Shown here piece by piece: positions 33,383 to 50,976 of a DNA stretch of 64,000 bases. The notes below the pieces were generated by a model that was given only the letters and a program-made list of their open reading frames with translations, was not told the DNA's origin and did no database searches. Source of the DNA: a virus; the IMG/VR virus record IMGVR_UViG_3300017788_001950, positions 1 to 64,000 of that record. One strand, written 5' to 3'. The position numbers and the translations under genes are program-made. Every line of letters starts with the position of its first letter. The first letter of the stretch is position 1.

Positions 33383-33384
33383 TA

Positions 33385-34881: not shown

Positions 34882-34923
34882 GTTCTTCTCTTTCCCTATG
34901 TGTTAGTGGAACGTAACAATATT

Positions 34924-34937
34924 CGAGGAAAACCTCG
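34924..34937. other. small hairpin in the 73-base gap before the glycosyltransferase pair
   Basis: CGAGG and CCTCG pair across an AAAA loop in the 73-base gap between the GDP-mannose dehydratase gene and the next glycosyltransferase. No T-run follows on the minus strand, so it is at most a weak terminator or a processing site. Confidence 0.3.
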
Positions 34938-34954
34938 GATTGTGCAAAGGAAGG

Positions 34955-35944: not shown

Positions 35945-35978
35945 GACCTAAGCATAGTGATCCCTGAATGTTTGTTTA

Positions 35979-36935
35979 TCAGCGGTTTACGCCACGAACA
36001 TTCGGGTAATTTTCCATAAACCATTGGCAGGTCTTTTTGAGGCCCTCAGCAAATGGTGTGTAGTCCGTGGCTTTCCAGCTAGTCATACTGAGCAATCTTA
36101 CGTTGGTAGATGGCTTGCGGAATTGGCCTACTGGAGCAGACTCATCAAAAACAAGCTCTCCTGTGTACCCAAGGTACTTTGCAAGGAGTCGAGCCACGTC
36201 CCCGATGGACTGTTCCTCGGAGACCCCAATGTTTAGTGGCATGTCATCATCATATTCCTTGGAGACCACGACCAAGATTCTTGCAATGTCCTCAGCATAC
36301 GTGAACTCCCGGAGCTGTTTGCCATTTCCCCAAATAGTAACAGTGGGCTGATTGAAAAGTCTGGCTTCCCAAATCCTTCGCATCAGAGATGGAATGACAT
36401 GCCCATTAATCAGATCGAAGTTGTCGTGCTCGCCGTAAATGTTGTTGGGAATGACAGTGACATACTTGAGCCCGTGCTGTTTCCTAATGGCCCTTGTGTA
36501 TACGTCAAGCATTCTCTTTGCAAAGGCATAGCCGAAATTGCTGGGATGAGGAGGACCGGCATGAAGCTGTTCCTCGCTAAGGGGCCACTTAACAAAGGGG
36601 GCATCTGGATACACACAGGTTGACAAAACCGACACCACCCTTGGCACCCACGCCTTAACACAGCCATTGAGAATGGTGGCGTTCATCACTGCATTGTCAT
36701 GATAGAAGTCAGCCAATCCCTCTGAGTTTGCCACAAGGCCACCTACACGGGCAGCCAAGTGATAGACCACATCAGGAGACGCATCTAGCAGACAGGCCTT
36801 GGTTTGCCCATGATCACGGAAGTCACGACGCTTACTTGAGGGAGCCTCAAAAGGAACCTGTTGCTCAGTGAGCACCCTTGAGAGGGCATTTCCAAGCATA
36901 CCAGAACCCCCGGTTATCAGGGCCTTTTCGGTCAT
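35979..36935 (-). CDS. fcl: GDP-L-fucose synthase-like epimerase/reductase
   Basis: An extended SDR of 318 residues. It has GGSGMLG (9-15), AARVGG (61-66), STCVYP (105-110, with Cys107), Y136-x3-K140 and NGHVIPSLMRR (His179). Positions of the catalytic Cys and His match the bifunctional 3,5-epimerase/4-reductase Fcl/WcaG. It would turn GDP-4-keto-6-deoxymannose into GDP-L-fucose, or the heptose analogue into a 6-deoxyheptose. Its start overlaps the GDP-mannose epimerase stop by four bases, and the gap to gmd is 34 bases. Confidence 0.88.
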   Translation of the reverse strand: MTEKALITGGSGMLGNALSRVLTEQQVPFEAPSSKRRDFRDHGQTKACLLDASPDVVYHLAARVGGLVANSEGLADFYHDNAVMNATILNGCVKAWVPRVVSVLSTCVYPDAPFVKWPLSEEQLHAGPPHPSNFGYAFAKRMLDVYTRAIRKQHGLKYVTVIPNNIYGEHDNFDLINGHVIPSLMRRIWEARLFNQPTVTIWGNGKQLREFTYAEDIARILVVVSKEYDDDMPLNIGVSEEQSIGDVARLLAKYLGYTGELVFDESAPVGQFRKPSTNVRLLSMTSWKATDYTPFAEGLKKTCQWFMENYPNVRGVNR

Positions 36936-37927
36936 TTCTTGCTCTGTTCGTTAATCCAGTGATATGTCTTGGCGAGGCCGACCTCAAGGGGCTCCGAAAC
37001 CTTCCATCCCATCTTCTCTTCAAATAGAGTATTATCAGACCTGCGTCCCATAACACCAATCGGACCAGGAATGTGGTTAAGCCGAATGTCCTTACCGGCA
37101 ATCTTGGAGATCATCTCAGCAAACTGGTTAATGCTGACCATCTCCTCAGAACCGATGTTCACGGGACCAAGGAAATCCGACTCCATGAAACGCTCCACTG
37201 CCTTGAGACACTCATCGATGTAGAGGAAGCTTCTCGTCTGCTTACCGTCTCCCCAGACCTCAATGGAGTCGCTGTTCTTGGCCATTGCAATCTTGCGACA
37301 CAGGGCCGCAGGAGCCTTTTCCTTGCCGTTATTCCAGGCACCCTCAGGACCGAAGATATTGTGGAACCTGGCAATCCTTACGTCCAGCCCATAGTTGCGA
37401 TTGTAGGAGAGATACACACGCTCACTGAACAGCTTCTCCCACCCATACTCCGAGTCTGGATTGGCTGGATAGGCACTGGACTCAACACAGTTGGGGTTAT
37501 TTGGGTCTTCCTGATTGTGGGCAGGATACATGCAGGCACTGGAACTGTAGAAAATCTTGGGCTTCTTGGCGCATTGCACAGCAGCCCGAACCACGTTTAG
37601 GTTAATGAGAGCCGAGCTGCTCATAACATCGGCATCGTGTTCCCCGGTGAAGATATAGCCAGCCCCGCCCATATCTGCGGCCAACTGGTAAATCTCGTCA
37701 AAGCACTCCTCCTCAGGAGCGAAGCGGTTGATCACCTTGTCAACGAAAAACTGGAAACGGAGATCGCCCTTGACAAAATCGTCAATCTGGTTGCCAAGGT
37801 CCGTGTACTCATGGAGCTTAATGTCCACGCCACGAACCCAACAGCCTTCCTTTTTCAGCTTTCTTGCAAGGTGTCCACCGATGAACCCACCTGCACCAAG
37901 GACCAATACTCTCTTCTGTTTTGTCAT
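36932..37927 (-). CDS. GDP-mannose 3,5-epimerase-like SDR
   Basis: A 331-residue extended SDR that strongly resembles GDP-mannose 3,5-epimerase. Signals: GAGGFIGG (11-18), QLAADMGGAGYIF (81-93), SSSACMYP (128-135), Y161-x3-K165, and IARFHNIFGPEGAWN with KEKAPAALCRK, then SFLYIDECL and GPVNIGSEEMVSINQFAEM. GME makes GDP-L-galactose and GDP-L-gulose; a related Campylobacter enzyme epimerises GDP-heptose. Substrate (hexose or heptose) cannot be decided from sequence. Overlaps the downstream SDR by four bases. Confidence 0.88.
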   Translation of the reverse strand: MTKQKRVLVLGAGGFIGGHLARKLKKEGCWVRGVDIKLHEYTDLGNQIDDFVKGDLRFQFFVDKVINRFAPEEECFDEIYQLAADMGGAGYIFTGEHDADVMSSSALINLNVVRAAVQCAKKPKIFYSSSACMYPAHNQEDPNNPNCVESSAYPANPDSEYGWEKLFSERVYLSYNRNYGLDVRIARFHNIFGPEGAWNNGKEKAPAALCRKIAMAKNSDSIEVWGDGKQTRSFLYIDECLKAVERFMESDFLGPVNIGSEEMVSINQFAEMISKIAGKDIRLNHIPGPIGVMGRRSDNTLFEEKMGWKVSEPLEVGLAKTYHWINEQSKK

Positions 37928-38778
37928 TTGCTGTGCTCTTTCATTTCGTCCATGACCAATCGAAGACCTTGACTAAGGCTAGTGGTCGGCTGCCAAATGT
38001 TCAGAATGTAAGGGTCTGGCTCATTTCGCTTATCCAACTGCACCGAGTCAATGGCCTTGGCAGGCACAACCTTTACACCGCCTCCGACCATATCGGCAAT
38101 GAGGTCAGCGACCTCCTTTACAGAGGACCACTGGAAGTTGGTGATGTGGTATTCCTTGTCCCTTGGAAGAATCGAGTAAAGTTCTGAAACCCTGAGCAAG
38201 GCACGAGCACAGTCCTCAGCATAAAGGAACTGCCTGACCTCCTGACCAGAGGTCATCATGTCAATGACACCAGTCTTTTGGGCCTTGAGAATGAAGTCTG
38301 TGATCACATGGGACTTGTTGAGGTCACGCTCATAGCCATAGACGTTCCAGAACTTCACGACAATCCCATTTAGGGTTCTCGTGTAACACTCACCAATTGC
38401 CTTTGCCACTCCATAAGGGGAATAGGACATGTTGGACATTTGGCTGCTAGCAAAGACAAAGGGTTTATTCCTTCTTTGAAGCTCCTCGAACACGTTGTAC
38501 ATAATGCCGACATTGTTGTGAAGGAAGTCGAAGGTGTGCTGGTACTTGGACAAATAGACAGAGCCACCCACATCGAAGGCAAGAAAGAAAACGAAATCGG
38601 CTTCCTCGATTTTCTTGGACCAGTGTTCAGGGTGAATTTCCAAATCAGGTTGACGCAAGTCCTGAGTCTCAGGTGAATTGACGATATCAACCTCCAACAC
38701 CTCATGTCCTTGTTTTTGCAAGAATGCCGTTAGGGGCGCACCAATCTGTCCTGCTGATCCTAGTATGAGATACTTCAC
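37924..38778 (-). CDS. NAD-dependent epimerase/dehydratase (SDR), 284 aa
   Basis: An extended SDR of the sugar-nucleotide type. GSAGQIG (7-13) binds NAD(P), SSQMSNMSYSPYGVAK carries Y122-x3-K126, and VKFWNVYGYE is the substrate-side loop. It is somewhat shorter than most 4-epimerases (about 310-340). I do not assign a specific reaction; it could be a 4-epimerase or 4-reductase acting on a GDP-keto-deoxy sugar. The four-base overlap with the GME-like gene suggests coupled expression. Confidence 0.8.
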   Translation of the reverse strand: MKYLILGSAGQIGAPLTAFLQKQGHEVLEVDIVNSPETQDLRQPDLEIHPEHWSKKIEEADFVFFLAFDVGGSVYLSKYQHTFDFLHNNVGIMYNVFEELQRRNKPFVFASSQMSNMSYSPYGVAKAIGECYTRTLNGIVVKFWNVYGYERDLNKSHVITDFILKAQKTGVIDMMTSGQEVRQFLYAEDCARALLRVSELYSILPRDKEYHITNFQWSSVKEVADLIADMVGGGVKVVPAKAIDSVQLDKRNEPDPYILNIWQPTTSLSQGLRLVMDEMKEHSK

Positions 38779-38782
38779 AGGT

Positions 38783-39400
38783 TCATCTCCTTACTGCCGA
38801 AAAAGCCTTACGAGCCCCTGCTGGGGAGTCCAGGCCCGGACCATAGAAGTCAAAGGTCCAATCTGGAAACTGCGACTGCCACCATTCCTCGGTTCGAATG
38901 TGCCAAAGGTGAGAGTGGAACTCACATCCAAAGCACTCCGAAAAAGACAAGGCAGAACCACTCTTTGCCACTACGTTAATCTGTCTCGCAATCTCAATCA
39001 CGTCGGAATCATCGAGGTGACTGAGAACGCAGAAGCAGTTGAAGATTGCCGGTCCTGATAGTTGAAGCTTGTCAATGGCATCCTGGGCAAAGGCGTTAAT
39101 CCAAGAAACTTTCTGGTTCTCGGGGTAGATTTTCTTGGCAATCTCCAGAGCAGCCGCACTTGGCTCAATGGCAAAAACCTTGTCCATGGTTTGGCTCATA
39201 AGGTTGGCAACCCAACCAGAACCGCAACCAATGTCCACGCCTATCTTGATTTTTGGATGAGCATCCAGGAGCTTGCCCAAGGGGGCATCCTGGTTGTACT
39301 GCACTCGATTTGCAGTATTGTGCTCGTGCCCGGCCTTTTCGTATTCGAACTTGCCGTTCGAGACGTATTCGGAGTTGTGGGCCTCATAGCTGTTTGTCAT
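38783..39400 (-). CDS. SAM-dependent methyltransferase, 205 aa
   Basis: The Rossmann motif I is KIGVDIGCGSGWVANLM (about residues 52-68), followed by acidic FAIEPSAAALEIAKK (motif II). A later segment ALSFSECFGCEFHSHLWHIR resembles Methyltransf_23-type enzymes. Likely methylates a sugar or the sugar-bearing target, since it lies among glycosyltransferases and epimerases. The acceptor is unknown. It overlaps the upstream glycosyltransferase by four bases. Confidence 0.8.
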   Translation of the reverse strand: MTNSYEAHNSEYVSNGKFEYEKAGHEHNTANRVQYNQDAPLGKLLDAHPKIKIGVDIGCGSGWVANLMSQTMDKVFAIEPSAAALEIAKKIYPENQKVSWINAFAQDAIDKLQLSGPAIFNCFCVLSHLDDSDVIEIARQINVVAKSGSALSFSECFGCEFHSHLWHIRTEEWWQSQFPDWTFDFYGPGLDSPAGARKAFSAVRR

Positions 39401-40578
39401 TCGTTAATCCAATCCTCAAGGTAAGGCTCATAGGTCTCGGGATTGCTGTAGTGACCGCTTACCTTAACCTTTTGAACCATTTCCTCATAGAGCTTCACAA
39501 ACTTGTTGATATTGGACTTGAGGTCATAGAGATCCGTGAATCTCTTTCTGGCAATGTTACCAAGCCATTCCCTGAAATCCTTGTTGTCCCTGAAATTCAT
39601 GATCTCGTAAATGTAGCTGTCAAAGTGACCGTGCACGAAACCTGCATTGCCAATTGTCTCCACATGGCCGTTGGCAGTCTGACCGAAGTGGGAAATAACT
39701 GGCTTACCAAAGGCCATGGCCTCTGCGATGGATTGTGAGTTAACCTCTCCGTCCATTCTGCCATGAAGGTAAACGTCCAAGGTGTTGAGGAACTTGTAAA
39801 CGTCTTTCATGTTGCTAGAGAATGGGACGTGATGGAAGTTCTTAAGGCCAAGGGCCTTTGCCTGTGCCACATAGCGAGAGCTGCCACCTAGAAGAACGTA
39901 GGCCGTGTTCTCTGTCTCGGCCTCAGCATAGGCCCTAAGGGGCCAATCCGAGTAAATGCCATCATCGGCTCTCTGGTGCATACCAAAGACAACCTTATCA
40001 CCAAGGCCCAGCTCCTTGCGGAGGTCAGACTTTGGAAGGGGCTTCGGCATGTGAATGGGAAGATAGATGACTCTGGACTTTGAGGCATCCCCGCCATTGG
40101 CAATCCACTGCGCCTCATTCCACTTACTGATGTGAACCACGGCCGCAATGTTCATTTGCCTATCGGTCATACCAGTTAGGTGAATGCTGTCCACGATGGA
40201 GACCTTGGACATTTTGTAGAACGGATACTCAGAGTGACCCGCCCTTCCAGTCTGGACAATGTCATAGTTCTCTTCCTTGAATTTATCCCAGAAATCCGTG
40301 TCAATCCAGTCATGAGTTGGGACGGTTACGTCCTTGTACTTCACGTTGAACTTAATGAGGTTCACGTTGTGAGCCCGCATGTAGTCCAATCTCTCAGGAT
40401 CGGTTGTCATGTGCTGGTAGTCCGAGCCAATGTATGGAGCAGCATCGCAGTAGAAATAATCCACTGCAAACTTGTCAGTCGGAAGATTGGCCGCCAACTG
40501 CTGTAGGAACTTCTCTGTTCCACCAGCCGAAAGACCTCCAAACTTAACGAAGGCAATCTTGATCTTATCCGAGGACAT
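39397..40578 (-). CDS. glycosyltransferase, GT-B fold (GT4-like), 393 aa
   Basis: N-terminal VKFGGLSAGGTEKFLQQLAA has the GGxE-type acceptor loop, and EVNSQSIAEAMAFGKPVISH near residue 290 is the E-x7-E-type donor motif. An interdomain strand KVVFGMHQRADDGI precedes it. It would transfer a sugar from an NDP donor. Genes for two methyltransferases flank it, so the product may be O-methylated. Exact donor and acceptor are unknown. Confidence 0.85.
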   Translation of the reverse strand: MSSDKIKIAFVKFGGLSAGGTEKFLQQLAANLPTDKFAVDYFYCDAAPYIGSDYQHMTTDPERLDYMRAHNVNLIKFNVKYKDVTVPTHDWIDTDFWDKFKEENYDIVQTGRAGHSEYPFYKMSKVSIVDSIHLTGMTDRQMNIAAVVHISKWNEAQWIANGGDASKSRVIYLPIHMPKPLPKSDLRKELGLGDKVVFGMHQRADDGIYSDWPLRAYAEAETENTAYVLLGGSSRYVAQAKALGLKNFHHVPFSSNMKDVYKFLNTLDVYLHGRMDGEVNSQSIAEAMAFGKPVISHFGQTANGHVETIGNAGFVHGHFDSYIYEIMNFRDNKDFREWLGNIARKRFTDLYDLKSNINKFVKLYEEMVQKVKVSGHYSNPETYEPYLEDWINE

Positions 40579-40582
40579 TCTC

Positions 40583-41230
40583 TTACCTCTTCCTCATCGT
40601 CATATAGAACGAGTTGGTGCAATTTCGAACCACAGTCTGGAACGGATAGGCCGAAACGTCTCTACCAGCCAGAAGCACCTCTTTCCAGAAAGCCTCAGGG
40701 AACACCGTCTGATGGAGGACATGGAGGTTTCCGTGCTCGTCCCTTCTGGTGTCTGGACCCATGTTAACAGAGGAAACGAAGATGCCATCTGGCTTGAGTT
40801 GGTCCAACACGTTGTCGAAGAAGGCAGGTAGGTCTTCTCGAGAAATGTGCTCCACGACTTCCCAGGCAGAGATAATGTCAAACAGAACTCTCTCCCCGTC
40901 CTCGTTCTCAATCCTCAGTGGTTTGGTAAGGTCGGCAGTCCACAGAACGTTCTTGTAGTAGCTTGGCCAGTTGTGGAGCCCGTGCTTAATATCATAGTCG
41001 GAGCCCTCCAGACCAATGGCATTGTGACCTCTGTTTGCAAAGTCCACAATGAGCTGGCCACCAGCGCACCCAATGTCCATCACGTTGATTTTACGGCCTC
41101 CGAAGTGCCTCTCCACTTCCTCGATGTAGGGAGCACTCGTGGAGTTGTCGTTCTTGGTTCCAACGGGGAAAATGTGATCCGGGGATTCCCAGGCCACAGG
41201 ATGGTCAGTGATTACTTTCAGCTTGGTCAT
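40583..41230 (-). CDS. SAM-dependent methyltransferase, 215 aa
   Basis: Motif I is INVMDIGCAGGQLIVDFANR (residues 48-67), with acidic loop NAIGLEGSDYDIK and the motif IV/V segment ISAWEVVEHISREDLPAFFD. This is the standard class I pattern of Methyltransf_23/UbiE-type enzymes. The C-terminus is basic. The start overlaps the UDP-glucose epimerase-like gene's stop by four bases. Sugar O- or N-methylation is the likely job, by location only. Confidence 0.85.
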   Translation of the reverse strand: MTKLKVITDHPVAWESPDHIFPVGTKNDNSTSAPYIEEVERHFGGRKINVMDIGCAGGQLIVDFANRGHNAIGLEGSDYDIKHGLHNWPSYYKNVLWTADLTKPLRIENEDGERVLFDIISAWEVVEHISREDLPAFFDNVLDQLKPDGIFVSSVNMGPDTRRDEHGNLHVLHQTVFPEAFWKEVLLAGRDVSAYPFQTVVRNCTNSFYMTMRKR

Positions 41231-42159
41231 TTCTTTGCTAGCTCCTCTTTGATGTACTCCTCCAAGGAGAGAGGAGCTGGAATCGTTCCCTTGGCCATTT
41301 GCATAAGGGCCCCAATGTCGGCAAGTGTGATCTGAGGTTCTTTCCTGGCGTCAATGTACTGAATGTTGTCCTCGTTGGGACAAATCCATCTGGCCACGGT
41401 GTTTAGCTCAAAGTTGCGCTGGGAACCGACATTGTACACGCTGAATCCCTTGGGTGCAAGAAACGCCCCTGCATAGTTTGCAGCAGCCACATTGTGCACA
41501 TGGACGAAATCCCTGGTCTGCTTTCCGGTCCCGGTGATTGTAAGCTTCTTGCCCTCACGAAACTGACGAAGCCAGATTCCAATAACGGGAACATAGGAGC
41601 CAACCTTGGGCTCTCTCGGACCATAGACGTTGAAGTACCTAAGGCAGGTGATGGTCATGCCGTACAGGTCGCAAAACATCTTTGCGTACTGCTCCCCGTG
41701 GAGCTTTTGAAGGGCGTAGGGACTCATAGGGTCCAGAGGTACCGTCTCAGGAGTTGGATGGCACGGAGGCTCTCCATAAACCGAGGACGAGGAAGAAAAC
41801 ACCAATCTCTTAACTCCATTGACTCGGCAGGCCTGAAACACGTTCAGGGTGCCAGTGGCGTTAATATCATTGGACCCAACGGGATCGACAATGGAAGGCT
41901 CAACCCTTGGGAGAGCCGCCAGGTGCCAAACGTGGGTAGCGCCCACGAGGTGTTTGGTAAGACTCCCAAGGTCACGAATGTCGCAATGTTCGAAGCGCAC
42001 TCTCTTTTTGAGACCGTACCCATCCTCTAGATTATGCATGAAACCTGTGGAGAGATTATCCAGTACAAGAATCTCATCCCAAAGGTGGTCTGAGTTGAGA
42101 ACACTGTCAACGACATGGCTGCCGATGAAGCCAGCACCACCAATTATCACGGCCTTCAT
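41227..42159 (-). CDS. NAD-dependent epimerase (UDP-glucose 4-epimerase-like), 310 aa
   Basis: An extended SDR with GGAGFIGSH (7-15), VLDNLSTG, HLAALPRVEPS, SSSSSVYGE (122-130), Y148-x3-K152 and RYFNVYGPREPKV. This is close to the GalE/WbpP branch of UDP-sugar 4-epimerases and 6-deoxy-sugar enzymes. It lies directly downstream of the heptose cassette, so a nucleotide-heptose is also a possible substrate. The NDP and sugar are uncertain. Confidence 0.85.
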   Translation of the reverse strand: MKAVIIGGAGFIGSHVVDSVLNSDHLWDEILVLDNLSTGFMHNLEDGYGLKKRVRFEHCDIRDLGSLTKHLVGATHVWHLAALPRVEPSIVDPVGSNDINATGTLNVFQACRVNGVKRLVFSSSSSVYGEPPCHPTPETVPLDPMSPYALQKLHGEQYAKMFCDLYGMTITCLRYFNVYGPREPKVGSYVPVIGIWLRQFREGKKLTITGTGKQTRDFVHVHNVAAANYAGAFLAPKGFSVYNVGSQRNFELNTVARWICPNEDNIQYIDARKEPQITLADIGALMQMAKGTIPAPLSLEEYIKEELAKK

Positions 42160-42165
42160 ATCTGC

Positions 42166-42882
42166 CTACTTTCGGTTTGCAACAGATATTCTAGTCCGAA
42201 GGTTGGACGTTGACCAATCGTGATTTCTCTCGTGCCAATGGATCTTAATGGGAAGGTGGTCCCCGGTGAACCGCTTGCCTTTCCAGTCTGTTCCTAGTAT
42301 TCTTACGTCCGGTTTGCGCTCTTCCAGTATTTTCTCAAGGTCTTTTTCGGTGACATAGGTCAAAACCTCGTCCACATACTTGCAGGACTCCAAAACAATC
42401 TTACGTTCCTCTAGAGTCTGAACAGGTGCGTTCTTGAGGGGTCGCTCCAAAGTGGGGTCCTCATGGAGAGCCGCAATCAAGTGGTCGCAGTGTTGCTTTG
42501 CATCCTGGAACATTCGCACATAACCGGGATGGAGAAGGTCGAAGGTGCTCGCCACAAATCCAACCCTTTTCTTGCCCAGAAACTTCTTCCTGAACTCCGA
42601 GACATGCATTGCCTTGTCGTCAATCAACAGGTCAAAGCTTGGCTTCTTGTTCATTACCAGGCTGTCATAGGGAACTCCCCAGGTCCTGAGCTGATGAGCG
42701 GTAATATCCGTCCAGTCAATCCCAGAAGAAGCTCCTCTGGCTGTGAACATGACAATACGATGCCCATCCTTGTGAAGCTTACGAAGGGCGTCAACCATTT
42801 CTGGAAATGGCTCTGCATCCTCATAGTCCCCATCAGTGTTGGTACAAATGGTGCCGTCAATGTCAAAGCAATAGGTTGTCAT
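42166..42882 (-). CDS. HAD phosphatase fused to nucleotidyltransferase (heptose-1-P type)
   Basis: Residues 1-105 are a HAD domain: CFDIDGTI (D7, D9) is motif I, IVMFTARG (motif II) and FDLLIDDKA (motif IV) follow. Residues about 108-238 are a cytidylyltransferase-type domain: VGFVASTFDLLHPGYVRMF, with HPGY in place of the usual HxGH, then ERKIVLESCKYVDEV and the terminal WSTSNLRTRI. Together they could remove the 7-phosphate and activate heptose-1-phosphate. Its start overlaps the GmhA-like stop by one base. Confidence 0.75.
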   Translation of the reverse strand: MTTYCFDIDGTICTNTDGDYEDAEPFPEMVDALRKLHKDGHRIVMFTARGASSGIDWTDITAHQLRTWGVPYDSLVMNKKPSFDLLIDDKAMHVSEFRKKFLGKKRVGFVASTFDLLHPGYVRMFQDAKQHCDHLIAALHEDPTLERPLKNAPVQTLEERKIVLESCKYVDEVLTYVTEKDLEKILEERKPDVRILGTDWKGKRFTGDHLPIKIHWHERNHDWSTSNLRTRISVANRK

Positions 42883-43394
42883 CAGTCACCGATGATACTG
42901 TGCAAGGCAATCTGATGTACACACTCCACGACTCCATAGTCAGAGGAATCAATCCAAATGTCAAGCTCCGCTTTGCCACCAAGAGACTCGTTCAACTGGC
43001 GCATCTTGTTGTTTTCGTCAAAACCAGTCAGAATGATGTGCTTGAGCTTAAGCTCCTGACACAACTCCATAACCCTAAGCATGTTCTTAGAGTTGCCGCT
43101 TGAGGAAATGATGATGACCAGAGTGAAAGGATCGGCGAACTCCTTGACGAACTGTCTGTTGGCCTCTTCCATTCCATAGTCATTGATGTAACAGGTCAAC
43201 CTTGAGGGATCAGAGAAGGTAATAGCCTTCTTGCCAAGCATTTTCGTGTAATCCTGGGCGATGTGAGAAGCCACGGAGTTTGAACCTCCATTGCCAAGGA
43301 TGATAATTCTGCCGTGTTGGTTGACAACACTACGCAGCCTATCCTTAAACTTGTAGGCAGTTACGACACCATCTAGTAGTTCGTCCATCTTCAT
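42882..43394 (-). CDS. gmhA: sedoheptulose-7-phosphate isomerase (GmhA-like)
   Basis: A 170-residue SIS-domain protein, near the usual 190. It has GNGGSNSVASHIAQD (34-48, with His44 and Asp48 where GmhA has His/Glu), SSSGNSKN (97-104, phosphate loop) and VVECVHQIALHSI (155-167, with Glu157, His160 and His165 near the GmhA metal/substrate positions). GmhA isomerises sedoheptulose-7-P to D-glycero-D-manno-heptose-7-P, the entry to activated heptoses. It is sandwiched between the heptose kinase and the HAD/nucleotidyltransferase with overlapping stops. Confidence 0.85.
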   Translation of the reverse strand: MKMDELLDGVVTAYKFKDRLRSVVNQHGRIIILGNGGSNSVASHIAQDYTKMLGKKAITFSDPSRLTCYINDYGMEEANRQFVKEFADPFTLVIIISSSGNSKNMLRVMELCQELKLKHIILTGFDENNKMRQLNESLGGKAELDIWIDSSDYGVVECVHQIALHSIIGD

Positions 43395-44329
43395 ACTTCA
43401 ACTCCTGTTACGCCGCTGTCGCTTATGTGAATTGGAATAGGTTGTCTACCAATCATGATGGGTGGTTTTTCGCCCTTATTGTAGAGAACGAGAAAGTAGC
43501 CACCAGCACCAGCACCACATAGCTTAGCGCCCAGAACATCCTTGTCTGTTTCAAACAAACTGTCCAAGGCCTGGAGGTCCGGGTTATCCAGTATTACTGG
43601 TGAGGTCTCCTTCTTGGTTTTCCAACCACTTCTGAAAATCTCAATGAAGGTCTCTCTGTCCTTTTCCTGTATTGCCTTCTGCAATCGATCCACCTGTTCG
43701 AGCATCAGGAAGCTTTTATCGAAATCGAGTGTGGAGAGAACTCCTGTGGAGCTTCTGGCAATACCGGTATTGTAAAGGGCCATGGTGAAGTTGGAGTTGA
43801 TGAACTCCGAACCAAAAAAGGTGAATGTAGGACGGCAGCCAAGGCGGAAGTCCATGCGCTTGAATCCGCCAACACCACAACCATAGGAATCCTGATAACC
43901 AGTAAGAGGATTGAACTTCCTCTCTAGCTCGATGGCCAGGTCGCAGGCGTCAAACTCCGTCATGGGTTTGCCGGTGTAAAGGCTAAGGGCCTTAATCATT
44001 GCAATGGTGTAGGCACTTGAGGAAGCCAATCCAGAGCCGGTGGAGAGAATGTTGGTATTGAACGTAATGGTCACAGGACCAACAGTGTTGAAGTGCTCAA
44101 GGCACACTCTAACAACGTCGTTCTTAATCTTGTTTGGATCGGAAACCTTCTCCGACTTGGAGTAGTTGATGATGTATTTTCCACAGTTGTTGTCGTGGAT
44201 GCTCACATAGGCATACAGGTTACTCGGAAAGGAGATAACCGAGCCATGATCGAACTTCCTTAGGAAGGCTTCCTGGTCGGTCGATCCTCCCAAAAGAGAA
44301 ATTCTCAGAGGACACTTAGCAACGAACAT
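43391..44329 (-). CDS. hddA: D-glycero-D-manno-heptose-7-phosphate kinase (HddA-like GHMP kinase)
   Basis: A GHMP kinase of 312 residues from ATG at 44329, which shares a TAATG junction with the preceding gene; a longer reading frame from 44383 has no support. Motifs: PLRISLLGGSTD (7-18), GSGLASSSAYTIAMIKAL (98-115, ATP loop), NPLTGYQDSYGCGVGGF, and LCGAGAGGYFLVL near residue 270. The PLRIS...GGSTD opening and GYQD are characteristic of HddA. It would make heptose-1,7-bisphosphate (alpha anomer) for the downstream phosphatase and nucleotidyltransferase. Confidence 0.85.
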   Translation of the reverse strand: MFVAKCPLRISLLGGSTDQEAFLRKFDHGSVISFPSNLYAYVSIHDNNCGKYIINYSKSEKVSDPNKIKNDVVRVCLEHFNTVGPVTITFNTNILSTGSGLASSSAYTIAMIKALSLYTGKPMTEFDACDLAIELERKFNPLTGYQDSYGCGVGGFKRMDFRLGCRPTFTFFGSEFINSNFTMALYNTGIARSSTGVLSTLDFDKSFLMLEQVDRLQKAIQEKDRETFIEIFRSGWKTKKETSPVILDNPDLQALDSLFETDKDVLGAKLCGAGAGGYFLVLYNKGEKPPIMIGRQPIPIHISDSGVTGVEV

Positions 44330-45216
44330 TACTTCTCTCCACGGTTCTTTTCGGCTAGCATTCGAATTTGAGGAACGTGCCAAATGTCAAGTGCCGCAAA
44401 AAAGGAAGTGCCATAAGAGCCTAGCCACTCATCAATCTGCTTAAGACGCCAGTTGGTGTCATGACTGGAATAGGACACGTCAGGGAATCTGATGCCGGTC
44501 TTCCACTCCTCAGGGATGGCCACGACAATGGCCGAGGGGTCTTCCTTGGTGATGGCGTACTTTCCGTTAATCCCTGCTGCGTCTCCAGGAGTACGGATAA
44601 GCTCACTCATTCGAAGCCAGGACTGCTTGATTTGGAAATGGTCCCAATCGCTGAACTGGAAATGGAAAACTGCCCCATGGCGAGGCTGGAGTGTTAGGGC
44701 TGTCTCCTTGTTCGCAAAAGGACCAGGCGTTCTTGGGGTGTGCATCCAGATTTCTGGATAGGTGTTCTTTGGATCATCCCGGAAGGCAAAGTCCTTGAAG
44801 TTGTTACTCCACACACTATGATCGTCCCGGTAGTGGTCAACAGACTTCCACATGGCTAGCCACTGCATAAGGAGTCTCTGTCCAGGCTCCAGGCGACTAA
44901 GGGCAGAGCGCCCGACCCTAAGGAAAGGAGCAGTGAAAGCCTCGTCGGCATCCAGCACCACGAAGTGCGTACCACCAGCCTCTCGACCAAGCTCCAAAAG
45001 CCTTTGACGAATTCCAAGCTCGGCCCAACCGCTCTTGGGCCTTTCACTATTCCAGTCAAGCACAGTGGCACCAGCCGACCTCAGAATGTCAGCGCCGCTA
45101 TCGGTGCTGTTGTCATCCATGGCAATGATTTGATCGACCAATGGGCGAACACCAGAAACGAAAGAGGGCAGAAAACGAGCCTCGTTCTTGAATGGAAGTA
45201 GGGCGATGATTTTCAT
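44329..45216 (-). CDS. GT2-family glycosyltransferase, 295 aa
   Basis: Start chosen at ATG 45216 (MKIIALLPFKNEARFLPSFV), because upstream sequence in the longer frame is not protein-like and overlaps the next gene. GT-A signals are IALLPFKNEARFLP, QIIAMDDNSTDSGADIL and HFVVLDADEAFTA (DxD-type). The later GAVFHFQFSDWDHF and YSSHDTNWRLKQIDEWL resemble GT2 enzymes that include a His-rich C-terminal loop. Transfers an unknown sugar. The stop shares one base with the HddA start. Confidence 0.75.
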   Translation of the reverse strand: MKIIALLPFKNEARFLPSFVSGVRPLVDQIIAMDDNSTDSGADILRSAGATVLDWNSERPKSGWAELGIRQRLLELGREAGGTHFVVLDADEAFTAPFLRVGRSALSRLEPGQRLLMQWLAMWKSVDHYRDDHSVWSNNFKDFAFRDDPKNTYPEIWMHTPRTPGPFANKETALTLQPRHGAVFHFQFSDWDHFQIKQSWLRMSELIRTPGDAAGINGKYAITKEDPSAIVVAIPEEWKTGIRFPDVSYSSHDTNWRLKQIDEWLGSYGTSFFAALDIWHVPQIRMLAEKNRGEK

Positions 45217-45223
45217 GGACTTT

Positions 45224-46057
45224 TCACCTTGTATTGCTGAGTAGGAAGGACTCATAATTGGGGATGAACTCCCTGAGATCCCAAGCCTTGCCGTCAAAAT
45301 GAACTTTGTGAGTTTCGTAGCTTTTCTCTGCCAGCTTAGGAAGCCAGCTTCTATCAATCTTGTCGAGAATGCCATATCTCTGCTCGATAAGGGTTCTCTC
45401 AATCTGCTGCATCCCGTCTCCTCGGGTGGAGGCTCCCTTGCCCTCGTCCAAATAGTAACCCAAAACCCCATGGGCAATACCAACCTTGCCGTGAAGAGCT
45501 AGGCGAATGGCAAGGTCAAAGTCTGCACCAGACCTTAGCTGCTCATCGAACTTTCCTGCCTTGAGACAAAGGCTCTTTTTCCAGGCAAAGAATGGTCCGA
45601 GAACCATGCTCCGGGTGTATTCCCCGGTGGAGAAACGGTACTGACTGTGATCCACAAAACGACCCTTCTGAGAAGGGAAGCTGTTGACAATCACAAAGTT
45701 ACCGTTGCAAATGTCGGCATCGGTATTTTCCAAAACCGCTACCTGTTTTTCAAGACTGTCCGGGGTTCTGAGATCGTCCACGTTCCAGATGGTAACAATG
45801 TCAGCCTGGGCAAGGTCAATGCACCTGTTCATGGAAGTGCCAATGGGCTCAACCGGATTGACAATATTGTGGAGAAGGATGCCAGGATACTGCTGTTGGA
45901 ACTCCCTTACCCAAACCAATTCCTCCTCAGTGGGCTCATTGTGATCGAGCACCACTTGAATGTCCTTGAAGATGGTTTGTTTTGGAAGCTCACTCAAAAA
46001 GAGCTTGAGATATCGCTGCATCCTAAAGCAAGGCGTGATCGTACTAATCTTTGGCAT
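45224..46057 (-). CDS. GT2-family glycosyltransferase, 277 aa
   Basis: Start chosen at ATG 46057 (MPKISTITPCFRMQRYLKLF), overlapping the upstream gene by 14 bases; the longer frame has an implausible leader. GT-A features are KISTITPCFRMQ, IDLAQADIVTIWNVDD (the DxD-like acidic pair) and SMVLGPFFAWKKSLCLKAGK with ADFDLAIRLALHGKVGIAHG, as in GT2 proteins. No membrane segment. Likely inverting transfer to a soluble or virion acceptor. Confidence 0.75.
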   Translation of the reverse strand: MPKISTITPCFRMQRYLKLFLSELPKQTIFKDIQVVLDHNEPTEEELVWVREFQQQYPGILLHNIVNPVEPIGTSMNRCIDLAQADIVTIWNVDDLRTPDSLEKQVAVLENTDADICNGNFVIVNSFPSQKGRFVDHSQYRFSTGEYTRSMVLGPFFAWKKSLCLKAGKFDEQLRSGADFDLAIRLALHGKVGIAHGVLGYYLDEGKGASTRGDGMQQIERTLIEQRYGILDKIDRSWLPKLAEKSYETHKVHFDGKAWDLREFIPNYESFLLSNTR

Positions 46058-46925
46058 CAAACAAATGGTAGTAATTCCGAGCCGATTGTACGAGCGTATG
46101 ATTTTCCAGTATGTACTTCCTCGGGGAATATTTCCATTTCCGAACACCTTCAAGGAAGTTGAGGAACAATGGCTCGTTTGGCCCAACAGTCACCTCGCCA
46201 CACCTGGCATCGAAATAGGGAACGCTAGTGGCCGGGACCTTGTCATAGGCACCCTCATTGTTCCACCAGGGTTGGTTGAATACAAACAAAGGCAGATCCA
46301 TTGAGAGCATCTCCATATAGGCGATACCCTGAGACTCGGTGTTGGTAAGCAACACCCCGAAGTCAGCCCAATGGCACAAGGACCGAAACTCAGACTCCTG
46401 ATAATTCCCATATTCCAGGACTCGGGTGTCAATGTCGTGGGTGGCAAGCATCTTCTTAACGAACTCCAGGTCTTGCTTACTTCGATTCTTGTAGTAGAGG
46501 AGACACTTAAGTTGCCCGGTCAGGGGACCAATGGTCTTAACCTCCCTGGGAGCCCACTCCTCTGTGTCAATCCCAACCGGCCATATGTCAATCTTGCACT
46601 TCTCCACCGCAGGGAACCTTCGGTAAAGGTCCAGGACCCACTTAGAGGGCACCACGATGCGCTGCATGACACCGAAAATGCTTGGAGGTAGGTCGGAGGG
46701 TAGAACGAAAATGTTCGGCCCATAGAGGCACCTAGAGGCATCCGTACCCTCAAGAGCAGAGAAGGGCATGCCCTGCAAGACCCCGTGGAGAACATCTCCA
46801 GGAGGTGCCTCGGGTGGGGCAAGCAAACCAAGCTCCTGAAGGCCCTTGGTGAGATTTCCCAAAACCTTACCGGGACCTCTGTTGCTAGAGGCATTGGCGT
46901 GATGGAGACGAACCAACTTTGTCAT
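46044..46925 (-). CDS. glycosyltransferase, GT-B-like, 293 aa
   Basis: The N-terminal part (RLHHANASSNRGPGKVLGNL) has a Gly-rich acceptor-type loop, and the C-terminal part carries LLTNTESQGIAYMEMLSMDL with PLFVF, a GT4-like E-x7-E region. At 293 residues it is shorter than typical GT4 (about 370), so part of a domain may be reduced. The protein starts one base after the upstream gene's stop. Sugar unknown. Confidence 0.65.
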   Translation of the reverse strand: MTKLVRLHHANASSNRGPGKVLGNLTKGLQELGLLAPPEAPPGDVLHGVLQGMPFSALEGTDASRCLYGPNIFVLPSDLPPSIFGVMQRIVVPSKWVLDLYRRFPAVEKCKIDIWPVGIDTEEWAPREVKTIGPLTGQLKCLLYYKNRSKQDLEFVKKMLATHDIDTRVLEYGNYQESEFRSLCHWADFGVLLTNTESQGIAYMEMLSMDLPLFVFNQPWWNNEGAYDKVPATSVPYFDARCGEVTVGPNEPLFLNFLEGVRKWKYSPRKYILENHTLVQSARNYYHLFDAKD

Positions 46926-46926
46926 G

Positions 46927-47640
46927 TCAACGATTCTCTTCGGTCTTCTTCTTGACGTAGTCTTCTACAAGGTCACTAAACAGTTCGCTGGAAATCTTAG
47001 AAGAAATGTCCTCCAGGATGGACGTGGTGTAAGTTGGAGTGTAGGTTAGTGGCGGCGAATTGTAATACTGAACGCAACTACCGCTGCTTACCATGTAGGT
47101 GTTGCTGGTGACGTCAATAGAGGTACCATTTGTTGAAGTACAGGTGGTAGGCTGAAAAGTCTTGGGATCGTAGTAGGTAACTTGACCAGCGTATTTCAGC
47201 AGCGAATGGCCATTGTAGTAGATGGAATTGCTATTTGGATTTGGATTGAAAGCATCTCCATTGGAATTGATCATTACTGGGCCGTGAGAAGGCATTGGCT
47301 TTGGCTTTATGAAACCAAGGTCCTTCTTAAGGTTGTAGAGACGCTTTCTCATGACCCGCTCACCGAGCGACATCGTTTTGATGTTATCCAGGAGCACATC
47401 ATAGTAACAGGCGGGCTTCTGGGTGAATGTGAATTGATGCGTTGACGGATTCCAATCACTATTAGTGGTCTCCATTTTGTGCTTCTGAGCAACAATCATT
47501 CCTGATACGAAATTCTCTTCGACTTTTTTACTGTACACATTTGATGCATCGGCACCAACAAAAACCCAAACCTTGTCTCCGACCTTGTATCGGTGTTTTG
47601 GTGTCTTGACAGCAGTAGTGAAAGTAGGGATTTGGGTCAT
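46927..47640 (-). CDS. unknown protein with SH3-like start, 237 aa
   Basis: Start chosen at ATG 47640 (MTQIPTFTTAVKTPKHRYKV); an upstream start in the same frame would overlap the FkbM gene. Residues 15-45 (YKVGDKVWVFVGADAS) look like an SH3/KOW-type strand. The middle is Asn/Ser/Thr/Tyr-rich (NPNPNSNSIYYNGHSLL, TCTSTNGTSIDVTSNTY). The C-terminus is helical. I do not recognise a family. Within a glycosylation operon it could be an acceptor or an accessory protein, which is speculation. Confidence 0.55.
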   Translation of the reverse strand: MTQIPTFTTAVKTPKHRYKVGDKVWVFVGADASNVYSKKVEENFVSGMIVAQKHKMETTNSDWNPSTHQFTFTQKPACYYDVLLDNIKTMSLGERVMRKRLYNLKKDLGFIKPKPMPSHGPVMINSNGDAFNPNPNSNSIYYNGHSLLKYAGQVTYYDPKTFQPTTCTSTNGTSIDVTSNTYMVSSGSCVQYYNSPPLTYTPTYTTSILEDISSKISSELFSDLVEDYVKKKTEENR

Positions 47641-47651
47641 GGCCGTGTGTG

Positions 47652-48296
47652 TCACTTTCTCAAATACAGAGCATCGCCCCAACCATAGGGGGTAGAAGCC
47701 GTCAGAATTCTCTGAAATCCAAAAGTACGAAGGAAGTCATCAAGCTCGGAAACCAAGGGAGCTCCGACGTATACTTCCTCAAAGTTGACCTCTGAATAAA
47801 CTGCCTTGATGTTCCCGTACTGATTCAGGAGATCCCCAAAGCCCTTGAGAACCTTTAGCTCGGCACCCTGAACATCAAGGTTGATGAAATCCACGTTTTC
47901 AAGCTCGATCGAGGTGATGTTCTTGCGATAGAAGGTGTCGAATCTCTTGGTTCGTTCCTCACGGGTCTCAACTACTCCAATTTGTGGATAGTGGGTGAGA
48001 TGAGTACCCAAAGGGAGAATGGAAGAGGACTGACCATTGTTGGTGATGCTAAAGGAAACCTTCTCATCATCCTGATCACTTAGAAGCTCACAGAAGTAGT
48101 TTTGCCTCAGGGGCAAGATCCTTGTGTTGTCATAGAGGTCCTTCATCAGGGTACGATTACCCTCAATCCAGGTTACCTGAGAGACGCCATTGGAGGCATA
48201 GTCCGCACCTTCCTCACCAAGGTGAGCCCCAATGTGAACCACACCACGAAAGGGGCGTCCTGCCTGAGTGGCACAGTCCTTAAAGGAGATCAGCAT
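47652..48296 (-). CDS. FkbM-family methyltransferase, 214 aa
   Basis: FkbM signals are GVVHIGAHLGEEGADY (SAM loop), WIEGNRTLMKDL, VDFINLDVQGAELKVLKGFG (catalytic acidic motif) and AVYSEVNFEEVY. The family O-methylates sugars or small molecules in capsule, glycan and antibiotic pathways. It lies amid glycosyltransferases, so sugar O-methylation is likely. Only 3 bases separate it from the upstream gene. Confidence 0.85.
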   Translation of the reverse strand: MLISFKDCATQAGRPFRGVVHIGAHLGEEGADYASNGVSQVTWIEGNRTLMKDLYDNTRILPLRQNYFCELLSDQDDEKVSFSITNNGQSSSILPLGTHLTHYPQIGVVETREERTKRFDTFYRKNITSIELENVDFINLDVQGAELKVLKGFGDLLNQYGNIKAVYSEVNFEEVYVGAPLVSELDDFLRTFGFQRILTASTPYGWGDALYLRK

Positions 48297-48299
48297 ACG

Positions 48300-49160
48300 T
48301 CAGTTCCTCTTCTCCCAAACGATAGGGATTTCAACGTGCACCGTGGAGTTTTTGAGGTCGCTCACGGTGGAAAGAGAGATTTGCTCACCCTTCTCACAGA
48401 AATGAACGTTCATCTCCTCAGGGCTCATAATGCTAGCAACACGATTGGCGTATTCATCCTGCACTCTGTTGGCAGGAATGTTGACCAGCTTCGAACCGTT
48501 CACATAGCAAATCATGTAGGTTGGTTTCTCCTCGGTCCCTAGCCCAACGAGCGAGGCATTGTTGACATTCAGAGAAGCCTCAAACTGATTGGGATTTGCA
48601 AAGTCCGAGTTGAGAATCTTCTTTATGACAGTCCCGGTACGATAGACGTTTCCGTCCACCGAGTAAGGATAGCCCCAATCTCCCTCGGCTCCATACCAAT
48701 TCCACACACAAGCCTTGACGAAGGTTGGAACGGCCGAGGATGAATTTGTGGCATAGCACTCCGTGATGTTCTTGTCGAGTCTCAGGCTGCAAGCCAAAAG
48801 CGCGTTACTATCCATTAGGGTCTCAATCTCCGGGTCGAAGAAGGAGAAGCGATCACGGAATAGGATATCATCCACCAGAAACATCGTTAAAGGGTTTGCC
48901 TCACGACCATTGAACAGCATCTTTAGGTCTTTCCTAAAAGACATGTCGTGACGCTGCAACTTCCACTCAATTGACTCGTGCTCAAGACTCGACTTGCAAA
49001 TCTCATAACCGTTCATAAAGTCCTCGGTGGAGGCCTTGTAGAGAACGGAAATGCTATAGTCCTCACCGAGCTTGTCGGCACAATTGGCAATCAGGGACCG
49101 AACGCAGGCATGCACCTGTGCAGCCCGATCCTTGGAGAAAATGATAACGTTGGCTCTCAT
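48300..49160 (-). CDS. GT-A-like glycosyltransferase, 286 aa
   Basis: Starts with ANVIIFSKDRAAQVHACVRS, the opening of a GT-A Rossmann fold, and has MFLVDDILFRDRFSFF with a DD pair in the place of the DxD. The next segment (LLACSLRLDKNITECYATNS) is less typical. It may be a sugar transferase with a divergent C-terminus, or a related enzyme of the same fold. No family is named with confidence. Confidence 0.6.
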   Translation of the reverse strand: MRANVIIFSKDRAAQVHACVRSLIANCADKLGEDYSISVLYKASTEDFMNGYEICKSSLEHESIEWKLQRHDMSFRKDLKMLFNGREANPLTMFLVDDILFRDRFSFFDPEIETLMDSNALLACSLRLDKNITECYATNSSSAVPTFVKACVWNWYGAEGDWGYPYSVDGNVYRTGTVIKKILNSDFANPNQFEASLNVNNASLVGLGTEEKPTYMICYVNGSKLVNIPANRVQDEYANRVASIMSPEEMNVHFCEKGEQISLSTVSDLKNSTVHVEIPIVWEKRN

Positions 49161-49164
49161 GTGC

Positions 49165-49917
49165 TTACAGTCCCTCTAACCACGCATTATTGGTGGATGT
49201 GTTCCTTCTGTACAGGTATTGTTTCTCCAAAAGGATACTTGTCTGCTGCAAAAGCAGGGTCATCTTGGTATTGAAGTCGGAATCCTCGGCTCTCTGACAC
49301 CGAAGTCCCAGATTCCCTGGCAAAAACTTCATCCCATTCACCCAAAGCTGGCGATAGAACAGGCAGGTTGCCCCATGGGCCTCATAGACATTGCCGATGG
49401 AGTAGTGGTTAACACCGGGCGTGTTGAGGCCTTGCCACACATTCTGGACAACCTCCTTATGCCCCATGATCGGGAGCGTTCCGGCAAATGTGTTCTTGGA
49501 GAATCTGGAAACGTCGTCCTGAGTGAAGCAGTGATGGAACAAGCAAAGGTTGTGCTTACTCCCGGTTTCCTGTAGGGCTGCCAATTGCCGCTCAAGGCGT
49601 GTTGGGCAAGAGGCATCATCTGCATCCTGCAAAGTAACCAACTGCCCGGTTGACTCAGCAATTCCCTTGTTGAGAGCATTCCACTTGCCCTTGTTTACCT
49701 CAAGATACACAAGCTTCTGCACAAACCCAGGATGGGCCTGACACCATTGGTTAATTACCGCACGAGAGTTGTCCGTGGAGGCATCGTCCACGATAATCAC
49801 CTCGAGATTTGGGTAGGTCTGAGCCTTAAGGCTGTCCAGAGCCTGTCCGATGTACTGCCCGTGGTTGAAGTTGGTTACAATAACGGAAATGAGTGGCATG
49901 GTCTTGTTGGTCGTCAT
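49165..49917 (-). CDS. GT2-family glycosyltransferase, 250 aa
   Basis: Clear GT-A/GT2 protein: PLISVIVTNFNHGQYIGQAL, LEVIIVDDASTDNSRAVI (first acidic motif), GQLVTLQDADDASCPTRLER (DADD, metal-binding) and YLYRRNTSTNNAWLEGL. The size is normal for a soluble GT2 enzyme. Two bases separate it from the upstream GT2-like gene. Donor sugar unknown; GDP- or NDP-heptose made in the same island are candidates. Confidence 0.9.
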   Translation of the reverse strand: MTTNKTMPLISVIVTNFNHGQYIGQALDSLKAQTYPNLEVIIVDDASTDNSRAVINQWCQAHPGFVQKLVYLEVNKGKWNALNKGIAESTGQLVTLQDADDASCPTRLERQLAALQETGSKHNLCLFHHCFTQDDVSRFSKNTFAGTLPIMGHKEVVQNVWQGLNTPGVNHYSIGNVYEAHGATCLFYRQLWVNGMKFLPGNLGLRCQRAEDSDFNTKMTLLLQQTSILLEKQYLYRRNTSTNNAWLEGL

Positions 49918-49919
49918 AT

Positions 49920-50924
49920 TCAGATATCCCTATGGGCCGCGGCCCAGGCCTTGATGCACTCAGGCATAGTGTGTTCTAGGCTTATGTGATTTGTTCTCTG
50001 TCCGTTCCAGGGAGCATGGAAGATATGCCCGCCAGTGCCCTGAGCTAGGGCCTTGGCCTTTTGGTTTATCTCCTCCTCGGTCACCTGATCCAGGGGTTTA
50101 TCGAAAAAGGGATTCCAGCCTGCGGGCTTATCGGATTTCTCACCGTAGAGGGAGAGCCAGGAATCATTCCAGAAGTGGCGGTACTTGCGAATCTTGGCTG
50201 CAATGCTCCACCAGGAAAAATGGTATACCGTAGGCAGTTGCTCAATGGTGCTCTGCATCCACATGCGGTACATGTCGGCTGCCTTAGGATCCACAAGGGC
50301 ACCTCTCCTGACATTCTCCACAGGGACGGTCATGAAGTTGAGACATGGCAAGGGCTGTCCGGTGTCGGTCCAAATGTAGTCACAGCCATCCGTGCCATGA
50401 CGAGCATAGAGCAATCCATCCTTATGCCACCTATGAGTGTTTGGAATGCCATGGGTGATCCTTGGGTCGTTCCTAGAGAATCTCCACTTCCATGGATTAA
50501 CGTCTACCCGGATCTTCTCCATGCCTCCCCAATACTCCACAACCGGGAGAGCCAACAGGGGAGTCTCTGGGGTAAGAGACTTTGATAGCTCCTCAAGCTT
50601 TTCCCTGAGGCCTGGAGCTGCAACCTCATCACAGTCAATCTGGAAAAGGTAGTCCCCGGTGCACATTTCTCGGGCCATGGCCTTTGTCAGACCGTCATAG
50701 ATTCCATGATTAGGGGCATCCCAGGGAATATCGGCATGGGACAACTGAATTCGAGGTTCCTTGTCGGCCATCTCGGAGAGAATGTCCAGGGTGCCGTCTT
50801 CCTGGTCAGAACTGTCCAACACAACAACCTCATCACAGAAGTCCAAAAGAGACTCGATGGTGGCCTCGAATGGATAGTCCATTTGCTTGGCGTTTCTGAT
50901 GGTGGTATAGCCCGAAATCTTCAT
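49920..50924 (-). CDS. GT2-like glycosyltransferase, first gene of the island, 334 aa
   Basis: Start chosen at ATG 50924, which has AAGGA 7 bases upstream; a longer frame to 50972 runs through the terminator hairpin and has no support. Features are KISGYTTIRNAKQMDYPFEA, DEVVVLDSSDQEDGTLDIL and CTGDYLFQIDCDEVAAPGL (DxD). The C-terminal part carries a YHFSWWSIAAKIRKYRHFW segment. It is the first gene after the strong terminator at 50941-50976, so its expression depends on read-through or an undetected promoter. Confidence 0.75.
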   Translation of the reverse strand: MKISGYTTIRNAKQMDYPFEATIESLLDFCDEVVVLDSSDQEDGTLDILSEMADKEPRIQLSHADIPWDAPNHGIYDGLTKAMAREMCTGDYLFQIDCDEVAAPGLREKLEELSKSLTPETPLLALPVVEYWGGMEKIRVDVNPWKWRFSRNDPRITHGIPNTHRWHKDGLLYARHGTDGCDYIWTDTGQPLPCLNFMTVPVENVRRGALVDPKAADMYRMWMQSTIEQLPTVYHFSWWSIAAKIRKYRHFWNDSWLSLYGEKSDKPAGWNPFFDKPLDQVTEEEINQKAKALAQGTGGHIFHAPWNGQRTNHISLEHTMPECIKAWAAAHRDI

Positions 50925-50940
50925 GTATGTCCTTGAAATG

Positions 50941-50976
50941 AAAAATCCGTGAGGTGCTCGTGGGCTCCTCACGGAT
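50941..50976 (-). terminator. strong intrinsic terminator directly upstream of the glycosylation island
   Basis: On the minus strand a perfect 10-bp stem (arms 50976-50967 and 50954-50945) closes a 12-base loop and runs straight into TTTTT. It ends the small-gene unit at 51028-51574. The island's first ribosome site begins about ten bases after the T-run, so the structure could also work as an attenuator controlling island expression. Confidence 0.75.

Follow-up and report, generated by a model that had tools for sequence, protein, structure and literature searches.

Does a virus carry in its own genome a whole route from a central metabolite of its host to a nucleotide-activated heptose? The question is raised by three overlapping genes located at 42166-44329, on the minus strand, of the stretch of viral DNA analysed here (the window, 64,000 nucleotides). 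An earlier note on this DNA had read them as a cassette that follows the GmhA-HddA-GmhB route of bacteria to NDP-heptose, and had considered such a cassette unusual in a phage. The enzymes of the cassette, its recurrence in other viruses and the sugars that it could activate are analysed below.

Organization of the operon and its genomic setting

The three genes encode a GHMP kinase, a SIS isomerase and a HAD phosphatase fused to a nucleotidyltransferase (Table 1). They are coupled, and the coordinates of the earlier note proved exact; the three genes that it described are real, while a regular fourth member of the unit, the SDR gene, had escaped it. Transcription runs from a glycosyltransferase gene through the GHMP kinase, SIS and HAD-nucleotidyltransferase genes to the SDR, with overlaps of 1, 4 and 1 nucleotides (TAATG at the glycosyltransferase-kinase junction, then ATGA and TGATG), and the SDR starts 6 nucleotides 3' of the HAD-nucleotidyltransferase gene. 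A TTG extension of the kinase to 44383 is unsupported by homologues; the glycosyltransferase is given as the listed open reading frame, and its uncertain true start may be further in. The possibility that the genes are degenerate and non-functional was rejected, the frames being intact and coupled and the catalytic residues invariant across diverse loci.

Table 1. Genes and domains of the sugar-activation unit and of its surroundings in the window
Feature	Position	Strand	Remarks
Glycan island around the unit	32210..50972 (approximate boundaries)	-	about 19 kb; Pfam/NCBIfam matches
Extended SDR (putative NDP-sugar epimerase/dehydratase), fourth unit member	41227..42159	-	PF01370, 183 bits
HAD-nucleotidyltransferase fusion, open reading frame	42166..42882	-	238 aa
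Nucleotidyltransferase domain, PF01467, HPGY for HxGH	42166..42570	-	residues about 105-238
Predicted HAD phosphatase domain, AfhF/BcbF type	42571..42882	-	residues about 1-104
SIS-domain ketose-aldose isomerase (GmhA-like, Asp/Glu ligand variant)	42882..43394	-	170 aa
GHMP-family sugar 1-kinase (HddA/WcbL-like)	43391..44329	-	312 aa; start ATG at 44329
Family 2 glycosyltransferase, overlaps kinase start	44329..45483	-	PF13704

The glycan island contains glycosyltransferases, methyltransferases, GMD, and Fcl-like and other SDRs. A GDP-mannose 4,6-dehydratase encoded at 34955-35944 (422.8 against a curated cut-off of 415) is followed by the Fcl-like SDRs, giving the island a second route to an activated sugar. 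At 53973-55046 an IMP dehydrogenase/GMP reductase family gene (PF00478, 258 bits) is located near genes for a PD-(D/E)XK nuclease and a Prim-Pol. The source record (65,737 bp, partial) encodes a baseplate wedge gene, PhoH and Prim-Pol, a set that is consistent with a contractile-tailed phage. DNA-level searches returned one weak phage match only, and 24 kb of the window matched nothing.

The GHMP kinase

The top NCBIfam match of the kinase in profile searches is HddA (NF049969, 77 bits, E=1.7e-21), in agreement with the earlier note. The score misses the cut-off of 600 bits, under which the best sampled HddA-type protein of Pseudomonadota likewise falls (416 bits). A profile built from 24 relatives and compared with solved structures gave 142-161 bits for HddA/WcbL, 86-90 for FKP, 63 for mevalonate kinase and 43 for galactokinase, so the grouping with FKP or galactokinase that would have spoken against an HddA-like enzyme was not found. 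Mutation of R13, D22, S118-120, Q162 or D163 abolishes the activity of WcbL (PMC4691232), and in the alignment all those residues are kept in the window kinase, as R9, D18, S103-105, Q146 and D147. In an arbitrarily rooted tree the kinase falls in a 23-row clade (support 100/99) apart from the HddA/WcbL and FKP references, composed of viral contigs, one phage and two MAG proteins, namely a Thiotrichaceae protein that is sister to the window kinase (99/87) and a protein from a Mycobacterium-labelled MAG contig of phage-like appearance. To judge from these sequences, the kinase belongs to a virus-dominated clade of its own outside HddA proper.

A lone kinase with 54-57% identity to that of the window, closer than most viral ones, is present in three Thiomargarita/Thiotrichaceae MAGs (L181, L182 and L183); in L182 its neighbours are sensor kinase genes, neither a SIS nor a nucleotidyltransferase gene being close by. 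These lone kinases may possibly hint at the host or at gene transfer.

The SIS isomerase

The assignment of the isomerase as GmhA-like was upheld by its top NCBIfam match, gmhA (TIGR00441, 65.6 bits, E=5e-18), at a score below the cut-off of 209 bits. GmhA was also the best solved structure for the profile of its relatives, and the top PDB matches of its AlphaFold model (pLDDT 96.5) are all GmhA (TM 0.7-0.8), followed by DiaA; the predicted structure has the GmhA fold. In the B. pseudomallei enzyme the zinc ligands are H64, E68, Q175 and H183 (PMC5705639). Their equivalents in the window protein are H44, D48, E157 and H165, invariant in 23 SIS relatives, so that of the GmhA metal ligands, whose lack the earlier note would have held against its reading, both histidines are kept while Glu is replaced by Asp and Gln by Glu. 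The phosphate-binding Ser residues and most GmhA catalytic residues are retained; in an alignment with E. coli GmhA, D94 is kept, and D58 and D169 are changed to Val and Gly. The SIS tree separates the viral proteins, as a single clade (100/99), from canonical GmhA.

The HAD-nucleotidyltransferase fusion

A HAD and a nucleotidyltransferase domain are indeed joined in one open reading frame, as the earlier note had seen, and the GmhB role that it gave to the phosphatase has to be abandoned. The HAD domain matches EcbF/BcbF (5e-7) and phrog_1238 (9e-28) in profile searches, with no match to the GmhB profiles NF006506 and TIGR00213 in the NCBIfam search. Among solved structures it matches PDB 9iqw (E=1.2e-12), which is also the match of the profile of its relatives and is entitled phage HY126 encoded D-arabinose 1,5-diphosphate phosphatase AfhF, the function of AfhF being taken here from that title. 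Identity is 36-38% to AfhF and 38% to the Mosigvirus HAD gene product, of the same family as 9iqw. The motif residues D7, D9, T47, K80, D88 and D89 are invariant in the relatives. By sequence, the phosphatase is best described as kin of AfhF, of the AfhF/BcbF type, and not as a GmhB.

The nucleotidyltransferase domain matches Pfam PF01467 (45 bits) and, about equally, the NCBIfam profiles TagD (68.5 bits, 5e-19) and RfaE_dom_II (67.6 bits, 1e-18); PF01467 is its only such family, and the PF00483-type profile of HddC gave no match. TagD was again found with the profile of its relatives (such profiles were built from 16-24 relatives per protein). In the model of the fusion (pLDDT 84) this part matches TagD, Fom1 and HldC, the best Foldseek match being 1coz, TagD (TMt 0.84). 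The HxGH motif is absent and reads HPGY (Tyr121). The domain thus appears TagD/HldE-C-like, not HddC-like. No single match spanning both HAD and nucleotidyltransferase was listed in 398 Pseudomonadota genomes, where the two domains occur apart.

PHROG 1238 is labelled 'phosphoheptose isomerase', and its members are AfhF-type HAD phosphatases (phrog_1238; L264:4986-5372; NC_006883 PSSM2_311); the AfhF sequence matches 370 phage records, at least some of them misnamed in the same way. Fusions of the AfhF-type HAD with an SDR, 420-538 aa long, are frequent in Pseudomonadota (L240-L246, L249 and L251), and in L239 the HAD precedes a region resembling an aminotransferase.

The SDR and the neighbouring glycosyltransferases

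A canonical HldD role was rejected for the SDR, which scores 98 bits with TIGR02197 against a cut-off of 275, below its scores with GalE, TviC and LegB. The gene is found in the matching position in 101 loci by a strict count. No heptosyltransferase family was matched among the neighbouring glycosyltransferases scanned.

Recurrence in viruses

A single-protein kinase query of viral contigs, with back-translated patterns that were too specific, found no relatives, whereas a query with the kinase alignment succeeded. IMG/VR scanned with this alignment alone gave 134 confirmed matches, 80 of which were kept, and the counts refer to these 80 loci. A SIS gene is present in 75 and the HAD-nucleotidyltransferase fusion in 60; the full order GHMP-SIS-HAD/nucleotidyltransferase-SDR occurs in 52, all of them (47 distinct SIS sequences) with the Asp and Glu of the isomerase and the Tyr of the nucleotidyltransferase. 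The pattern of a second scan, based on SIS, contains the Asp, and its loci were therefore left out of that count. When they and other loci are added, full cassettes rise to 101 (some contigs being represented twice), with 77 distinct SIS sequences in about 60 groups below 90% similarity, and HPGY is found in all 101. Alternative fusions also occur, of GHMP with the nucleotidyltransferase in LR756511 and of SIS with the nucleotidyltransferase in four loci (L120, L127, L148 and L184).

A relative of the unit has in fact been published. Synechococcus phage SynMITS9220M01 (MT408532), a marine cyanophage, was reported in 2020 with heptose-related LPS genes (PMC7378029). Its genes 203-207 have the order of the window, glycosyltransferase-GHMP-SIS-HAD/nucleotidyltransferase-SDR, with 42-48% protein identity over kinase, SIS and HAD-nucleotidyltransferase. 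They were annotated by similarity only, the SDR counterpart as ADP-L-glycero-D-mannoheptose-6-epimerase, and the HAD-nucleotidyltransferase was entered as hypothetical and is unnamed in that paper. With this cyanophage and at least 52 viral loci of the same order, the cassette can no longer be called unusual in a phage. It is a conserved viral operon, recurrent as one unit in dozens of environmental viruses; the gene family is known, and the present variant, widespread and no one-off, is not described in the papers found.

In five loci (L093, L155, L174, L180 and L185) a PfkB/HldE-like kinase and a nucleotidyltransferase directly precede GHMP-SIS-HAD/nucleotidyltransferase-SDR, two activated-sugar systems thus adjoining. 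Viral-type cassettes were also found in contigs binned as Pacearchaeota, Acidimicrobiaceae and Mycobacterium (L184, with its SIS-nucleotidyltransferase fusion, L185 and L186), which are probably misbinned phage contigs.

The probable sugar of the route

Profile searches against the GmhA, HddA, GmhB and HldE/HddC families, which the earlier note had suggested, gave matches to GmhA and HddA, below their cut-offs, and to RfaE_dom_II, but none to GmhB or HddC. The family-level assignments themselves lie well beyond chance. The textbook GmhA-HddA-GmhB-HddC pathway was accordingly rejected, since HddA and gmhA are the best family matches but at 65-77 bits against cut-offs of 209-600, and there is no HddC-type nucleotidyltransferase and no GmhB-type HAD. 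The window shares with that set the reaction order, the superfamily subgroups of kinase and isomerase and the essential WcbL residues, and differs from it in the AfhF/BcbF-type HAD, the PF01467 nucleotidyltransferase with HPGY, the changed SIS ligands and the extra SDR. Hence the GmhA-HddA-GmhB route as such did not survive, whereas the general logic of isomerase, C1 kinase, terminal phosphatase and nucleotidyltransferase is supported by the family assignments, and heptose would still be the likeliest sugar.

We consider it reasonably probable that the operon makes, and then edits, a nucleotide-activated heptose. The SIS isomerase would convert host sedoheptulose-7-phosphate into aldoheptose-7-phosphate, the GHMP kinase would phosphorylate C1 to give the 1,7-bisphosphate, the HAD domain would take off the 7-phosphate, and the fused domain would transfer a nucleotide to give NDP-heptose, CMP or AMP being more likely than GMP because this domain is TagD/HldE-C-like. 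The SDR would epimerize or dehydrate the NDP-sugar, which the adjacent phage glycosyltransferases would then transfer to a glycan, most likely on the host surface or on the virion. The family-level chemistry and the conserved catalytic residues of these steps are observed; what we infer is that the substrate has seven carbons, which nucleotide is transferred, what the SDR does to the sugar and which glycan accepts it.

The closest solved structures, heptose kinases and phosphoheptose isomerases, argue for a heptose, and the conserved gene order of the viral loci, the fusions that link the steps and the retained GmhA residues also count in favour of the proposed route. In bacteria the Asp/Glu type of SIS adjoins GmhB-, HddC- and HldE-like enzymes, and the isomerase of the phage arabinose pathway is unrelated; for these reasons a heptose is favoured. 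One protein of L022, a record deposited as phage and possibly bacterial, joins this SIS to a GmhB-like HAD and is encoded next to an HddA-like kinase. The Pseudomonadota genome L295 has the Asp/Glu SIS in a cluster with an HddA-like kinase, a fused HddC-like/GmhB-like protein and an SDR, and in two others (L265 and L266) its neighbours on either side are an SDR and a two-domain HldE-like protein. In cyanophage P-SSM2 the AfhF-type HAD adjoins an HldE-domain-I kinase and a nucleotidyltransferase. The HldE-like sets of P-SSM2 and S-CAM1 have, as the window does, the AfhF-type HAD and the PF01467 nucleotidyltransferase in sugar-gene islands, but their kinase is PfkB (HldE domain I, 148 bits) and not GHMP, and the P-SSM2 locus has no SIS. 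Such bacterial and P-SSM2 neighbourhoods are associations, which may point to heptose. Against a heptose stand the scores of kinase, isomerase and SDR far under the equivalog cut-offs, the separate kinase and SIS clades, the two changed zinc ligands, the Val and Gly in place of E. coli D58 and D169, the nearest characterised HAD, a pentose bisphosphate enzyme by its PDB title, and the lack of a heptosyltransferase match among the neighbouring glycosyltransferases scanned. A search for biochemical work on viral members found none.

That HAD relative opens the way to a pentose. A phosphatase that takes the terminal phosphate off a sugar 1,n-bisphosphate would suit heptose and pentose alike, and in an NDP-pentose (D-arabinose-like) route the SIS would act on ribulose-5-phosphate, the kinase would produce a 1,5-bisphosphate for an AfhF-type 5-phosphatase, and the NDP-pentose would go to a glycan or to phage DNA. 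RB69-type phages, which combine a SIS gene, a nucleotidyltransferase and an AfhF-type HAD, carry arabinosyl-hmC DNA (PMC6024577). The RB69/HY126-type module is likewise an activated-sugar route, but only the phosphatase is shared with the window (38% identity): its SIS is of the KpsF/KdsD type (TIGR00393, 111 bits) and not meaningfully similar to that of the window (hhalign probability 5%), its nucleotidyltransferase is PF00483 and not PF01467, and no GHMP kinase is annotated in the cluster. As the SIS and kinase of the window find their matches among heptose enzymes, and no DNA-hypermodification gene was recognised in the open reading frames scanned, many of which in this partial record have no family match, a pentose seems unlikely to us.

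It is equally improbable, in our estimation, that the same logic of isomerase, kinase, phosphatase and transferase is applied to a hexose, an octulose or a heptose isomer other than D-glycero-D-manno. Kinase and SIS clades of their own and an invariant altered active-site signature are the expected trace of a shifted substrate, but the bacterial neighbours of the Asp/Glu SIS type are heptose-type enzymes, and hexose activation runs through mutases, unlike this route.

It is very improbable that the HAD-nucleotidyltransferase is a CDP-polyol or CDP-glycerol enzyme placed by chance beside the SIS and GHMP genes, since its closeness to TagD and the lone TagD-like relatives of many phages are outweighed by the occurrence of the four genes together across dozens of loci and by the fusion of the nucleotidyltransferase to kinase or SIS in some. 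A cytidylyltransferase and a reductase act on fructose-6-phosphate in CDP-6-glucitol synthesis (PMC10918830), which was set aside for the TagD-like domain because the partner there is a reductase and here a GHMP kinase and a HAD.

Returning to the nucleotide-activated heptose, we suggest only tentatively that the unit represents a virus-specific enzyme branch, in which the metal site of the isomerase is rebuilt and the nucleotidyltransferase is of a Tyr type, and that this branch makes an NDP-heptose or heptose isomer unlike those of the known GDP or ADP routes of cells and is widespread in environmental phages as a four-gene unit.

Implications

The invariant Asp/Glu/Tyr signature provides a simple means to recognise the unit, and the annotation 'phosphoheptose isomerase' on the HAD protein of phages can be corrected. 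Moreover, with this unit one can test cleanly if the AfhF phosphatases are confined to pentoses or accept sugar-1,n-bisphosphates generally. If the proposed route is true, many environmental phages would bring with them every step needed to turn a central metabolite of the host into a rare activated sugar that the host may not make, and could coat its surface or the virion with it.
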